40,032 bases of DNA, from the IMG/VR virus record IMGVR_UViG_3300045975_000176, positions 1 to 40,032 of that record; one strand, given 5' to 3'. A model generated the notes under the pieces. It saw only the letters and a program-made list of their open reading frames with translations. It did no database searches and had not been told where the DNA came from. Made by a program: the position numbers and the translations under genes. This DNA comes from a virus. This document shows, one piece after another, positions 21,312-31,371 of the stretch; position 1 is the stretch's first letter; each line of letters opens with the position of its first letter.

Positions 21312-23876
21312 CTAGCGGCGGACCAGACTCCCCATCACGCCGCCCGGGCGTTTCTTGTGGCGCTTGTCGAGCGATTCGTAGTGCTGCCGCTCGAGGGCGG
21401 GCAGGTGCGCGTAGGGGTCGACGATGAGCGTGCGGTCCTGGAACGGACGCGCCTCGAAGAACCGGCCGATGTCCTCGTAGCAGTTATGAACCAGGAGGCC
21501 GTTGGCGAAGAACTCGTGCGCGTCTTCGACGGTTAGGTCATACACCGCGGCGCGCCCGCTTGGCCGCACGGTAGTAACACTTCGGGTCACCGCAGAAGCG
21601 CTTGTTCGGTCGCTTCGTGGCGAATCGAGCGCCGCACCCATCGCACCGGACAAAGCGCGTCGGCTTCGACTCTCGCTGTCGTTCCTCGAACGAACGATTG
21701 ATGCACTTGGCGGAACAATAATTGACGTCGCGCAGCTGGTCACCGGCGATGTCAGCGGGTCCCCCACACATCGCGCAGGTCGTGAGGACACGAGGGATTG
21801 CCAGCCGCGCTTCAGAAGCGTATCCAGCGTTCTCGCGACGCGCAGCGCGCTGGCGAGGAGTCGGATTCCTACTATGGAGCGAGAGATGCTGCTTTCGAGG
21901 CAAGAGTTCGAGATTGTCGGGATGGTTGTTTGCACGGTTCCCATCCTTGTGGTGCACATGACAGCCAAACGGCAGACGCCCGTGCGTGTCTCGCCACACG
22001 CGGCGGTGAAGGCGACCGTAGCCACGGCGCGCAAAGTAGCGACCGCATTTGTAATAGACCACGTCCCGCCACACCTGCGCTGTCTCTGACAGCACGATTG
22101 GAGCTTCGACCACAAGGAAACCTCTGTCGCGTAATACGGTATGAAGTCGTTGGATATTTCGTCGACACGGATGAATCCACGCGTTTTGTCAAAGATTCCA
22201 TGGTTCCCAGTGGCGCGCACGGCGCCGCCAGGTGTCACGACCTCGAACACCTCGGCATCTGGCGATGTCTGCCAGGCACGCAACACCCGCCGATAGCCTC
22301 GGCGCGTCAGGAGCCTGTCACCGGCCAGAATCCGCTCGATCGGCGTCAGTCCTTCGTCGGTGTGCACCAGCGTGCCCTCGGCGATGCAGTGGTTCTCGGA
22401 GTCTTCGTCCTCCACGTCGGGATCTTCCTCGTCCCATGGGATGTCCGGGACCGTGCGGATCGCCTCCGGGCACGCAGTCGTGATCGTCCAGTTCGGCAAC
22501 CCGTCGACGTTGGTCTGCAGGGCATCGAGCCAGCGCTGCGGCCGCGACTCGCGCGCCGGCCGTCCTGCGGCACCGAGCCGCACGTTGCAGATGTGCAGCA
22601 GCTCGTCGCAGTAGACCTCGTAGATGGACTTCGCGCGCCCCAGTTCCTCCCGGCTCGCCTTCATCGACGGGTCGATCACGATCCACTCGGGCTTGTAGTT
22701 CCGATGTTCGAGCAGCTGGCGAATCATCTGCGCTTGTTCCACGTCGCGCTTGCGGGGCATGTAGAACTCGAAGAACGTCCGCACGTGGCCACCGGGCAGG
22801 CCGGCATGGAGATGGAACGACCACGGGACGCCATAGCCATAGTCGACCGAGCCCCAGATCGGCGCTCCCGCCGGCGGCTTCCAATGCGCGTTGGGGATCA
22901 CGTGCCAGGGGATCACCTGACCGACCGACAGCGCCGCCGAGAGCGCCAGCAGATCCTCGTCGGTCTCGTGGATCATCTTCTTCTCGCGCCAGAACGGGCC
23001 GACGATCATCTGATCGTTGGCGTCCCAATCGCCCTCCGCCAGTTGCTTCGCCTTGTCGCCACCGAGCGCGTAGACCTTGGCCAGGTAGTGCGGATCGGCG
23101 TTGGCCAGCGCCATGTTGTCGTGGAACCACGCCGGGATGAACTGCCGCGTGGGCACGAACTCGGGTTTGCTCGGATCGCCGGGGAGCGGCAACGGGCGCC
23201 ACACCTCGAAGGGTTGCGGCGGCAGTCGGCCCGGGCCCAGCTCCTCGGGCCGAGGCCGCAAGAACCAGCGTTTGAGCCATCCATGGCCGACCCCGCCCGG
23301 GTTCGACATCAGGCGGATGCGCTTGCGCATGCCGAGACGCGCCGAGCGGACGCGCGTCGCCAGGTATTTCACCTGGAACTCGGTGAAGTGCGACGCCTCG
23401 TCGATGAACAGCGCGACCCACTGCGCCGACTGGTAGCTGTAGACATCCTTCTCGTGCTGCGCGTGACAGAACCAGAGCTGTGAGCCGTTCCAGAACGTCG
23501 CCACCAAATCCGAGGCATTGAACTTGGCGATGTAATCCGGCACGAGCAGCAGGAAGCGGCTGATGATCTCCTGCTTCAGTTCCTTCAACTTGCGGCGGAA
23601 GAACGCGACCTTGACGTTCGGGTTCTCGATGCAGATCGTGATGGCTTCGACCAGGCCGAACTCGGACTTGCCGCCACCGACGGCGCCGCCGTAGAAGAGG
23701 ACCTCGGCGACAGAGGCGTGCGCAAACGCCTGTTTCGGCTGCGGGACGCAGCGATCACGGCGGGGATGGCAGGGGGGATCGTGCACGCACTCGCCGGACG
23801 GGTCGGTATAGCCCCAATTCCAGCCGGCCCGAAGTGACGCGAGGCGTCGCGCCTCCTTCGAGCGCTTACCGCTCAT
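21312..23876 (-). CDS. terL: Terminase large subunit, interrupted by an intein (854 aa precursor)
   Basis: The ATPase and nuclease that packages phage DNA. Walker A is GGAVGGGKS at 63-71; Walker B is LFIDE at 156-160 followed by ASHFT. The RNase H-like nuclease starts at GSVDYGYGV (D345), with IVIDPSMK (D402) as a second acid. Residues 497-798 are an intein, placed within the conserved acid/His element ENH-CYEDIGRFF near the C-terminus of the nuclease; splicing would give about 552 residues, the usual size. The extended Cys/His N-terminus (CVHDPPCHPRRDRC) is unusual. An HNH gene lies in another frame inside the intein. ATGA overlap with the upstream gene. Confidence 0.92.
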   Translation of the reverse strand: MSGKRSKEARRLASLRAGWNWGYTDPSGECVHDPPCHPRRDRCVPQPKQAFAHASVAEVLFYGGAVGGGKSEFGLVEAITICIENPNVKVAFFRRKLKELKQEIISRFLLLVPDYIAKFNASDLVATFWNGSQLWFCHAQHEKDVYSYQSAQWVALFIDEASHFTEFQVKYLATRVRSARLGMRKRIRLMSNPGGVGHGWLKRWFLRPRPEELGPGRLPPQPFEVWRPLPLPGDPSKPEFVPTRQFIPAWFHDNMALANADPHYLAKVYALGGDKAKQLAEGDWDANDQMIVGPFWREKKMIHETDEDLLALSAALSVGQVIPWHVIPNAHWKPPAGAPIWGSVDYGYGVPWSFHLHAGLPGGHVRTFFEFYMPRKRDVEQAQMIRQLLEHRNYKPEWIVIDPSMKASREELGRAKSIYEVYCDELLHICNVRLGAAGRPARESRPQRWLDALQTNVDGLPNWTITTACPEAIRTVPDIPWDEEDPDVEDEDSENHCIAEGTLVHTDEGLTPIERILAGDRLLTRRGYRRVLRAWQTSPDAEVFEVVTPGGAVRATGNHGIFDKTRGFIRVDEISNDFIPYYATEVSLWSKLQSCCQRQRRCGGTWSITNAVATLRAVATVAFTAACGETRTGVCRLAVMCTTRMGTVQTTIPTISNSCLESSISRSIVGIRLLASALRVARTLDTLLKRGWQSLVSSRPARCVGDPLTSPVTSCATSIIVPPSASIVRSRNDSESRSRRALSGAMGAALDSPRSDRTSASAVTRSVTTVRPSGRAAVYDLTVEDAHEFFANGLLVHNCYEDIGRFFEARPFQDRTLIVDPYAHLPALERQHYESLDKRHKKRPGGVMGSLVRR
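21483..22388 (-). mobile_element. TerL intein (302 residues in frame)
   Basis: Begins with Cys497 (CIAEGTLVHTDEGLTPIERI, block A) and has a block-B-type TGNH at 556-559. It ends with VYDLTVEDAHEFFANG then LLVHN (blocks F and G); the next residue is Cys799. Splicing residues Cys1, His-Asn and +1 Cys are all present. Splicing segments add up to roughly 112 residues, so it is a mini-intein whose middle, about residues 588-778 in this frame, is the other-frame reading of an HNH gene and should carry no endonuclease of its own. Confidence 0.88.
21538..22113 (-). CDS. HNH homing-type endonuclease nested in the TerL intein (191 aa)
   Basis: Read in the -1 frame relative to TerL. Residues about 15-80 hold a group-I-intron-like HNH domain: DVVYYKCGRYFARR, LHRRVWRDTHGRLPFG, CHVHHKDGNRANNHPDNLEL, then KQHLSLHS. 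Zinc-finger units follow (CAMCGG, CSAKC, CDGCG, CGDPKC). The GTG start has GAGG about seven bases upstream. Its TGA falls inside VYDL (Y779/D780 of TerL), exactly where the intein's block F starts. The frame is open upstream of the GTG without a start codon, so a frameshifted product from the intein is another possible route. Expected to cut an intein-less terL and drive intein homing. Confidence 0.85.
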   Translation of the reverse strand: MVEAPIVLSETAQVWRDVVYYKCGRYFARRGYGRLHRRVWRDTHGRLPFGCHVHHKDGNRANNHPDNLELLPRKQHLSLHSRNPTPRQRAARRENAGYASEARLAIPRVLTTCAMCGGPADIAGDQLRDVNYCSAKCINRSFEERQRESKPTRFVRCDGCGARFATKRPNKRFCGDPKCYYRAAKRARRGV

Positions 23877-28494: not shown

Positions 28495-31371
28495 TTAGGC
28501 CGCCTTCCGTGCGCGGTGTCCGAGGTTGGCCGCCAGCAGCGCAGCCGCGACGTGCGGCGGCACGGAGTTGCCACACATCCGAGTCTGCGCCTTCTTCGAG
28601 AGCTTCGTGGGCACGGGCAAGCCGAGGTCAGTGACCGTGACGACGTGTTCGATTTCGTAGTCGTGCTCAACGACTAGGCGGATCAAGAGTGAGCTCGCGC
28701 TTGACGTTGGCGCGAGAGTGGACCCACCGATGGCATCGAGCACAAAGGAGCACAAGGTTGTCCAGTGCGAGGCGAAGCTCTGGGAAGGTTGCCCATCCGC
28801 CGATATGGTGCACTGCGTATCCGGGACCGCGGCGAACCCGGTCCAGGCATCGCCGGCAACAGCCACCGTCTCGCTGGAAGACGGCGCGGCAGGCCCTGAG
28901 CCATGGCTTTGATGCGTAGAAAGCAAGCTGCTCTGGCGTACAGCCGCCCTTCCAGTTTGGCGCGCGTGGACCGGTAAAGAATGCTCGCGAGCAAGCATTC
29001 GAGCAAAATCGCCGATGTCGGTAGGTAGGGGAAACGAGACGCCCTCGGCCGCAGAACTCGCAGACGAGGGTGACTTTTCTGGACTGCGTAGCACCAGAAC
29101 GTGCTGCCCGCAGTCGATACGCGCATTCACGACTACAGGTGCGACGTTGTGGGCTTGAGGCTCGGACGAGATGTGGCCGCGCGCAGACTTCGCACGGTCT
29201 CGACTCGCGAGGGTTTGGCGGCCGCCCGCCGCCTGGGTTGCGTGGTCGCGCCATACCTGAATCTCCGCCTCGGTCTTGAAACTAGGAAAACCCTGGCAGC
29301 GGAACAGCTCGCGCGGGGTCAGCATGCGCATCCCGATGTCGACGATGGCGTATTCCTCGCCGGCAATCGTGACCGTGACCAGCCCGAAGCGCTCCTTGGT
29401 GGTGAGCGTGTCCACCGGCGCGTCGAGCGGACGGCCGGAGACGTTGGTCCCGAAGTACTTGACCAGGAAGGCCGTGACGAGCGCCTTGTTCTCGCGGCAG
29501 ACGATGGTGTCGACCGGGCGCTGGAGCTTCTGACCGGTGGCCTCGTGACCGCCGTTGTGCTTCGCCAGGAACGCGGCGACGAGCCCGAAGCGGTTGGAGG
29601 TATGCAGGCTGAAGTCGATGCACTCGGCCGCCGTGCGATAGGGCTGGCGCTTCGGGCCGTGCGTGGGTTTCGGCCACACGATCGGCTGACCATCGAAGCG
29701 GACAATGACGAACAATCGCTTGCGGCGCGTCGGGGCGCCGTGCTCGTCAGCCACCAGCTCGCGATACTCCACCACGCCGCCGAGGTTCTGGAGACGCGAC
29801 ACCCAGCGACGGAAACTCTGCCCCTTCTTCGCGGCGTTGGGTCGCCCGTCCTTGCCGAGCGGACACCAATCGCGGAACTCTTCCACGTTCTCCATGAACA
29901 GCATGTCGGGCGGGCGTCCGGTCGCTTTCTTCAGCTCGACGACGCAGCGGACCAGCTCCCACGCGAGCCCACGAACGCGACGCGCGCGGTTGCGGTCGCG
30001 GAACGGTCGACCGCCGCGCGCCTTCGAGTGATAGGTGCAGTTGTGCACGATGATGCCGTCCGCGACGAAGCTCTCGTCTTGGGCGACGCTCAGGTTGTAG
30101 ACCGTGAACAACTCGGAGCCGGTATGGATGCGTTCGCGGATGGGCGCCCACAGCAGGCCGTCCTCGACCGCAGTGTGCGCGTGCGATTCGGTGATGCTCT
30201 CGCGCCATTTCACCGACCAGGCTGGACGCACGTTGACGCGCCGCCCAGCGATCTCGTCGGGCTGATTGGTCCTCAGCACCACGTGCGCGGCGTGACCCAG
30301 CGAGGCGACCAGCGCCTTCAGCCCGAACGCGAGCGCCTTGGAAACGGTCGTCGCGATTGTCAGCGGCGTGCCGACGCCGTGCGCTACGCACCCGTCTCCG
30401 GACAGGTAGCCATCCAGAAACCACTGACGCGACTCGACCGACAGCCCAAGCAACCACCCAGGGATGGTTTTCTCTGCAGCACCGTGGCCGAAGTGCTCAC
30501 GGAGCCATTCAACTAATCCCCGATGGCTCGTCGAGAACTGATAGGCGGTCCCTGTCTCCCGCTCAGTCCACGCCAACTCCCCTGACCGGCTGCGTGTGCC
30601 AGCGCGTGGCCACTGCGCCAGCGACTCACGGAGGTCGTCCGCCTCGTGGCGTCCGCAGGTGAGGACGAGTTCTGCGCGCACGTCTGTGAGCCGCGTCCAG
30701 CCGTCGGCGACGTAGCGACCGGCAAGCCAAAGCAGTTTGAAGTCGACCTGTAGTTCACGCTCGCGATGCACCGGCACCGCAGGCGCAGCCGCCCCTGGGA
30801 ATGTCGTCGGCGACGCCCAGTACTGGCCGCGCTCAAGGCTCTTCGCAGGCGCCCAGTACGCCTGGCTCAGGCGCCTCGCCATTCCGGCGCCGCTCGTGCG
30901 GTGCTTCACGAGGAAGGGATGCTCTCCACTGACGAACAGGCCGGGGTGACCGAGCCCACGCACCTGGAGTAGCGGGCGCTCAGTGCTCATCGTGTTCGTG
31001 ACGCGGCGCCACCGTTGCTCGTGGGTCAGCACTTCCTCGCCAATTTCGATTTCCTCGATCGGCACGTAGCCGCGTCGCGCGAGCACCATCGTGCCGGCCG
31101 GGAAACAGTCAGGCGAGAACCAGGCGAAGCGGCAGTGCTTGCCCGTGAGCAACGTGCCGTAGTCGACCGAGCGGATGTTGGTCTGCACGTGGCGCGTCTT
31201 CGGATGGTTCGCGGCGTGCATCGCGAGCGCTTCCGCGTCGTGGTTGATGGCCACGTCGGGCGAGCGGCCGGTGGCCCACTCGATCCCGACCGAGGCGCCA
31301 CCACCACCCGCGAACCCGTCGATACAGCCTTCGTCGTCGTAGAGCCGGACTTGCGGAACGCGGGGCTTCAT
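28495..31371 (-). CDS. DNA cytosine-C5 methyltransferase with an intein and a nested HNH insertion (958 aa precursor)
   Basis: Motif I is DGFAGGGGASVGIEWA (18-33). Motif IV is FSPD-C, split by the intein so that the catalytic cysteine (residue 445) is the first residue after it. Motif VI is ENVEEFRDW (about 494-502), VIII is RRKRLFVI (549-556), IX is LTPRELFRCQGFP (684-696), X is GNSVPP near the end. Residues 89-444 are the intein. Residues 697-901 (615 bases, a multiple of three) are an inserted Ser/Ala-rich segment that is the other-frame reading of an HNH gene. Without both, about 397 residues remain, the family's normal size. It would methylate phage DNA against host restriction. Confidence 0.9.
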   Translation of the reverse strand: MKPRVPQVRLYDDEGCIDGFAGGGGASVGIEWATGRSPDVAINHDAEALAMHAANHPKTRHVQTNIRSVDYGTLLTGKHCRFAWFSPDCFPAGTMVLARRGYVPIEEIEIGEEVLTHEQRWRRVTNTMSTERPLLQVRGLGHPGLFVSGEHPFLVKHRTSGAGMARRLSQAYWAPAKSLERGQYWASPTTFPGAAAPAVPVHRERELQVDFKLLWLAGRYVADGWTRLTDVRAELVLTCGRHEADDLRESLAQWPRAGTRSRSGELAWTERETGTAYQFSTSHRGLVEWLREHFGHGAAEKTIPGWLLGLSVESRQWFLDGYLSGDGCVAHGVGTPLTIATTVSKALAFGLKALVASLGHAAHVVLRTNQPDEIAGRRVNVRPAWSVKWRESITESHAHTAVEDGLLWAPIRERIHTGSELFTVYNLSVAQDESFVADGIIVHNCTYHSKARGGRPFRDRNRARRVRGLAWELVRCVVELKKATGRPPDMLFMENVEEFRDWCPLGKDGRPNAAKKGQSFRRWVSRLQNLGGVVEYRELVADEHGAPTRRKRLFVIVRFDGQPIVWPKPTHGPKRQPYRTAAECIDFSLHTSNRFGLVAAFLAKHNGGHEATGQKLQRPVDTIVCRENKALVTAFLVKYFGTNVSGRPLDAPVDTLTTKERFGLVTVTIAGEEYAIVDIGMRMLTPRELFRCQGFPSFKTEAEIQVWRDHATQAAGGRQTLASRDRAKSARGHISSEPQAHNVAPVVVNARIDCGQHVLVLRSPEKSPSSASSAAEGVSFPLPTDIGDFARMLAREHSLPVHARQTGRAAVRQSSLLSTHQSHGSGPAAPSSSETVAVAGDAWTGFAAVPDTQCTISADGQPSQSFASHWTTLCSFVLDAIGGSTLAPTSSASSLLIRLVVEHDYEIEHVVTVTDLGLPVPTKLSKKAQTRMCGNSVPPHVAAALLAANLGHRARKAA
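28667..29254 (-). CDS. HNH endonuclease nested in the methyltransferase gene (195 aa)
   Basis: Read in the -1 frame relative to the methyltransferase. N-terminal zinc-finger units (CEVCARP, CSRECAYR, CEFCGRGR, CSNACSRAF) lead to an HNH nuclease domain (CRRCLDRVRRGPGYAVHHIG then LDNLVLLCARCHRWVH). ATG 29254 has GGAG eight bases upstream. Its TGA at 28667-28669 overlaps the codons where conserved methyltransferase sequence returns (GTT-GAG; EHDYEIEH). A 6-bp repeat CCTAGT occurs at both borders. No room for a group I intron core. It is likely a free-standing homing-type nuclease gene lodged between motif IX and X. Confidence 0.85.
   Translation of the reverse strand: MARPRNPGGGRPPNPRESRPCEVCARPHLVRASSPQRRTCSRECAYRLRAARSGATQSRKVTLVCEFCGRGRLVSPTYRHRRFCSNACSRAFFTGPRAPNWKGGCTPEQLAFYASKPWLRACRAVFQRDGGCCRRCLDRVRRGPGYAVHHIGGWATFPELRLALDNLVLLCARCHRWVHSRANVKRELTLDPPSR
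30040..31107 (-). mobile_element. Methyltransferase intein with LAGLIDADG motifs (356 aa)
   Basis: Starts at Cys89 (CFPAGTMVLARRGYVPIEEI, block A), with SGEH (148-151) in place of block B TxxH, and ends FTVYNLSVAQDESF then VADGIIVHN; the next residue is Cys445. The endonuclease domain has two dodecapeptide-like motifs, LLWLAGRYVADGW (214-225) and QWFLDGYLSGDG (316-327). Thus it is a full intein with an in-frame homing endonuclease, inserted at the invariant catalytic residue of motif IV. Confidence 0.92.

Follow-up and report, generated by a model that had tools for sequence, protein, structure and literature searches.

A C5 methyltransferase gene with two insertions

The DNA analysed here, referred to as the window, is a 40,032-bp metagenomic IMG/VR virus record with a GC content of 66%. 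Among its genes are those of a tailed phage, encoding the terminase large subunit, the portal and a head closure protein. A gene of 958 codons at 28495..31371 (-) encodes a C5 cytosine-DNA methyltransferase (PF00145, E 2.2e-15); its length includes an intein as well as an insert that bears an HNH gene. The N-extein, which runs from motif I (GFAGGGGAS) to WFSPD, is found at 31108..31371 (-). The C-extein up to motif IX (QGFP) follows at 29284..30039 (-), and its end with motif X (CGNSVPP) lies at 28498..28662 (-). An AlphaFold2 model of the whole 958-aa chain was of low confidence (mean pLDDT 51) and no conclusions were based on it.

We also compared the gene with a second allele, L014. The C-extein of the window copy is 465 bp (155 codons, in frame) shorter, the missing part being located at about position 29603, between motifs VIII and IX. 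Beside this length difference 25 substitutions are clustered at 29689-29955, a block that looks like a recombination tract. Inside the intein (0 in 1068 bp) and the HNH insert the two alleles show no differences.

The intein directly precedes the catalytic cysteine

The intein is located at 30040..31107 (-), exactly where an earlier note on this DNA had placed it, and its 356 aa, from Cys1 to His-Asn, correspond to residues 89-444 of the reading frame. It starts with CFPAGT after SPD and ends with VHN before CTYHS. At the N-terminal junction (CFPAGTMVLARRGYVPIEEI) block A and Cys1 are present (Hint_2, E 6e-6, just under the cut-off). The C-terminal splicing blocks F/G (VYNLSVAQDESFVADGIIVHN; 30040..30102 (-)) were assigned with TIGR01443 and an alignment of inteins, and the TIGR01443 match of this region is above the cut-off (E 7.6e-8, 32.4 bits versus 15.6). 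The Pfam matches in the intein, Hint_2, LAGLIDADG_3 and Intein_splicing, were all just under or below the curated cut-off. Block B reads SGEH, in which the His is retained and Ser replaces the Thr of the usual TxxH.

LAGLIDADG motif 1 (LLWLAGRYVADGW; 30697..30735 (-)) and motif 2 (WFLDGYLSGDGC; 30388..30423 (-)) have both kept their catalytic Asp, D135 and D238, respectively. Same-site inteins were found in other phages with 52-56% identity, and both Asp residues are invariant across the six inteins. When the AlphaFold2 model of the intein segment (mean pLDDT 64) was searched with Foldseek, the top matches were PI-SceI (best E 4.3e-12) and the Tli/Pho VMA inteins. With two motifs, both catalytic Asp and a Hint splicing domain, the proposed LAGLIDADG intein was confirmed, and the C-terminal His-Asn followed by Cys+1 (VHN|C) is that of class 1. 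Judged by its sequence, the intein is an ordinary example of this familiar type.

The Cys+1 codon (30037..30039 (-)) encodes the invariant catalytic Cys of motif IV, in agreement with the earlier note; the motif reads PDC here and PCQ in P1 Dmt. It follows from this anatomy that the unspliced methyltransferase should be inactive.

Intein-free alleles are common

In intein-free homologues SPD is joined directly to C, and in P1 Dmt the same is seen at TPC. The window intein is thus a precise, in-frame insertion for which intein-free alleles exist. The closest relative found that carries neither the intein nor the HNH insert is L044. Phage PMBT3 (without intein) and Lana (with intein) form an empty/filled pair, and an empty allele (L040) and an intein-containing one (L024) were both obtained from one metagenome. 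The reference P1 Dmt (NC_005856.1, GTPCQAFS) is empty, whereas a P1 variant (OP279344.1) harbours a 341-aa intein at the same Cys, with flanks that are 95.7 and 97.1% identical. A limited literature search found no paper on this P1 Dmt intein, which says little on prior knowledge. With P1-like phages that have or lack the active-site intein, homing at a catalytic residue could be tested in laboratory E. coli.

It had been suggested that the intein persists because only its precise loss is tolerated. The sequences do not show this: alleles without the intein are common, and the observations also agree with ordinary homing into a conserved site.

An HNH gene is hidden in another frame of an in-frame insert

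The second insertion, at 28663..29283 (-), adds about 207 codons in frame between motifs IX and X, and its ends are uncertain by 1-2 codons. It lies directly after motif IX (QGFP) and before motif X (GNSV), which are 26-35 aa apart in most uninserted relatives. The 958-codon frame, hereafter the host frame, crosses the insert without a stop. In another frame, at 28667..29254 (-), we found an ORF of 195 aa encoding an HNH endonuclease with zinc fingers (PF01844, E 4.3e-9). Host codons begin at the second base of the HNH codons. The earlier note had described an HNH in the same gene and two homing systems sharing 958 codons. The intein and an HNH-type, homing-like element are indeed both present in the DNA of the gene, but the HNH is a separate ORF in another frame, not an in-frame domain, and it lies outside the 958-codon frame.

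A profile search gave no intein match within the insert, and a search for direct-repeat or transposon ends around it gave only short, chance-like repeats. In the AlphaFold2 model the insert region had a pLDDT below 40, which is compatible with a loose loop and says nothing for its tolerance. The presence of the insert is patchy: it is found in the window and is absent from L044 and the other relatives checked, and DNA of the empty motif-IX site was found in TC7, NV1.1.1 and L044. For the window copy, which has a GC content of 64%, the chance of an open host frame was P 0.06-0.17 by exact synonymous recoding. Taken alone, its open host frame could be due to chance.

The hidden HNH recurs at one site and in one phase

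Including the window and 14 members from viral contig scans, homologous HNH genes were found in the C5 methyltransferases of 15 divergent phage lineages. All 15 share one insertion site and one relative phase, the host frame is free of stops, and motif X is intact and in frame downstream. The host methyltransferases are highly diverse (some of the GTPCQAFS type, others of PDC types) and the GC content of the HNH genes ranges from 31 to 64%. Even in members with 31-40% GC the host frame stays open, while the remaining frame contains 4-33 stops in the lineages measured. Given the HNH proteins, the chance of an open host frame, multiplied over the 13 lineages with an intact HNH, was ~1e-18 when the codon usage of the HNH itself was applied and ~1e-31 when that of the host was applied; such products overstate the case, because the lineages share ancestry. 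A chance open frame, possible for the window alone, was rejected for the family as a whole.

In L113 (2 stops) and L155 (1 stop) the HNH frame is broken and the host frame is nevertheless open, indicating that it is the host frame that is being preserved. Free-standing HNH relatives contain 2-12 stops in the corresponding frame. The similarity of the host-frame peptides beyond what the HNH dictates had a mean z of 3.2; the other frame gave 1.9 and free-standing pairs (L114-L116 only) ~0. This suggests a modest conservation of the host-frame peptide. With their own codon usage the HNH proteins imply ~2-4 host stops in the observed phase versus 6-31 in the other phase. We infer that the phase is constant because only the observed one is easily cleared of stops. 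L113 (IMGVR_UViG_3300035698_011757) was also found to carry both a catalytic-Cys intein and the hidden HNH insert in its C5 methyltransferase.

Putative expression signals of the hidden HNH

In 7/15 lineages the sequence TGnTATAnT is separated from the HNH ATG by exactly 6 nt; in L141 and L148 it reads TGnTATAAT. No other spacing between 0 and 29 nt yielded more than one lineage with so high a score. For the ten lineages tested, the joint probability of this motif under the encoded host peptide and host codon usage was 10^-10.6, a value not corrected for kinship. With a spacing of 6 nt the transcription start would fall on the A of the ATG, and this extended -10 motif suggests that the HNH mRNA is leaderless. 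Different host residues (Val, Ala, Asp) are encoded at the free n of the motif, but the bases on either side do not change, not even a T at a wobble position, as expected for a constraint on the DNA and not on the protein. L127 contains TATAAT without the TG, and L144 a similar motif at 7 nt.

The motif is missing in the window copy (WIN), L109, L011, L113, L151 and L155. Three of these, the window copy, L109 and L151, have a Shine-Dalgarno-like site in its place. In the window this is GCGGAG at 29263..29268 (-), before the HNH ATG, with a dG of -7.3 that is equalled by 4% of windows in the host gene. The lineages taken together gave no support for a Shine-Dalgarno sequence as the general expression signal (combined P 0.40). 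The promoter-like and Shine-Dalgarno-like sites provide testable answers to how the hidden nuclease is made.

TerL inteins with out-of-frame HNH genes

A second intein of the window (302 aa, CIAEGT ... VHN|C) is located at 21483..22388 (-) in the terminase large subunit gene terL at 21312..23876 (-), and scores 37.4 bits with Intein_splicing (cut-off 35.8). Its middle consists of an out-of-frame HNH_3 endonuclease ORF at 21538..22113 (-) (E 6.7e-15), in a relative phase identical to that of the methyltransferase HNH. In other viral contigs, too, TerL or TerL-like inteins contain a long ORF that is out of frame and in this phase (L133, L158, L159, L160, L165, L166, L167, L168, L179 and L180). 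Among these TerL-type inteins, an HNH_3-like motif is present in L158, L159, L166, L167, L179 and L180, and Pfam HNH_3 in L133. In L158, L165 and L179 an ATG is preceded, at a distance of 6 nt, by a TGATANACT-type motif.

A gene that may host two independent homing elements

The anatomy, the junctions, the empty alleles, the recurrence and the open host frame are seen directly in the sequences. We consider it very probable that this phage C5 methyltransferase gene is host to two independent homing elements, the catalytic-Cys intein and a hidden HNH element that is read through. The class 1 LAGLIDADG intein immediately precedes the catalytic Cys and would render the precursor inactive. Predicted splicing via Cys1, the block B His and HN/C+1 would excise it and restore SPD-CTYHS, and its endonuclease would cut intein-free alleles at the conserved catalytic-Cys site. 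The HNH element would have been inserted right after motif IX. The host would translate through it, giving a loop of ~207 residues that is not removed and is presumably tolerated. The HNH itself would be produced on its own, starting within the insert, and its frame is the only one relative to the host in which few host stops arise. It would cut empty motif-IX sites. For its expression the window copy may use a Shine-Dalgarno site, and many relatives may use an extended -10 that gives a leaderless mRNA.

Introns frequently encode the HNH homing endonucleases of phages, and the insert might accordingly be a self-splicing group I/II intron with an HNH ORF, its host frame being open by chance. 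We regard this as very unlikely. The HNH ORF takes 588 of the ~621 nt, so that only ~33 nt lie outside it, and an Rfam search gave no match at E up to 10, bar one irrelevant hit. An open host frame is also unneeded by an intron, yet it was kept in all 15 lineages, two of them with a broken HNH. Another explanation is that the insert kills or splits the methyltransferase, leaving a pseudogene or two chains as in genes-in-pieces, and that the HNH parasitizes a dispensable gene. Naturally split C5 methyltransferases do exist. Phage methyltransferases have been said to be often dispensable, in a statement about the relatives of ShiLan (PMC11855218). However, neither a dead nor a split enzyme needs a continuous frame of ~200 codons, which is nonetheless kept in genomes with 33-40% GC, and the intact, in-frame motif X downstream in every lineage argues against both, making this explanation improbable.

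As for the intein, it could be a decaying relic that no longer splices or homes. The Ser for Thr in block B would fit this, and splicing is a prediction; yet all key residues and both LAGLIDADG Asp are invariant in the six inteins, and the window and L014 copies are identical although their exteins partly differ. A relic therefore appears quite improbable to us.

Selfish endonuclease genes usually avoid harm to their hosts through splicing of RNA or protein, or through an intergenic location. The hidden HNH would represent a third way, in which the host reads through, and at least 15 phage lineages have it at the same conserved site. Hidden out-of-frame HNH genes may well form a broad mobile class, an idea that we favour slightly over its opposite. 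Members of this class would spare the host gene through dual coding instead of splicing, many of them with an extended -10 of their own, positioned to let transcription begin on the ATG (leaderless mRNA), and would colonise inteins too, such as that of TerL in the window. If true, the endonuclease and the splicing domain of some inteins are read from different frames.

Comparison with known systems

The inteins of Pseudomonas phage Lana gp71 and the P1-variant Dmt (OP279344) are likewise located before the catalytic Cys, with a Hint domain and a His-Asn end. The genes differ in sequence (40% identity over the matched gene for Lana, 27% for P1), and those of Lana and the P1 variant lack a hidden HNH. 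The free-standing HNH of haloviruses HCTV-1 and HCTV-5 also has zinc fingers and is 29-35% identical to the HNH described here, but it sits between genes, whereas ours is nested in the host frame.

The arrangement itself is known from the ShiLan domain, a mycobacteriophage methylase insert that is in frame and conceals an HNH in another frame (Arsenault, Gosselin and Gogarten 2025, PMC11855218). That paper detailed two cases, the second being Pacc40, and left open how the hidden nuclease is produced. The ShiLan gp65 gene also bears an intein (PMC9957025). Like the insert described here, that of gp65 extends a phage DNA methylase in frame, without stops, and lacks splicing signals; its HNH likewise occupies the third frame relative to the host, and the gene has an intein at another position. 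At the GTG start of the ShiLan HNH no convincing promoter hexamer was seen by eye. The two differ in that ShiLan combines an N6/N4 methylase (PF01555) with HNH_3 (PF13392), compared to a C5 enzyme (PF00145) with PF01844 here. The host sites also differ, and the HNH proteins are 27-29% identical over part of their length only. Membership in the ShiLan family proper was rejected on account of the other Pfam families and host enzyme. The features of a hidden out-of-frame HNH are nonetheless all present: an open host frame, an HNH in another frame, no intron or intein signals and a patchy presence. By sequence, the hidden HNH of C5 methyltransferases is thus a different family with the same arrangement as ShiLan, and this arrangement, known since 2025, appears more widespread than reported.
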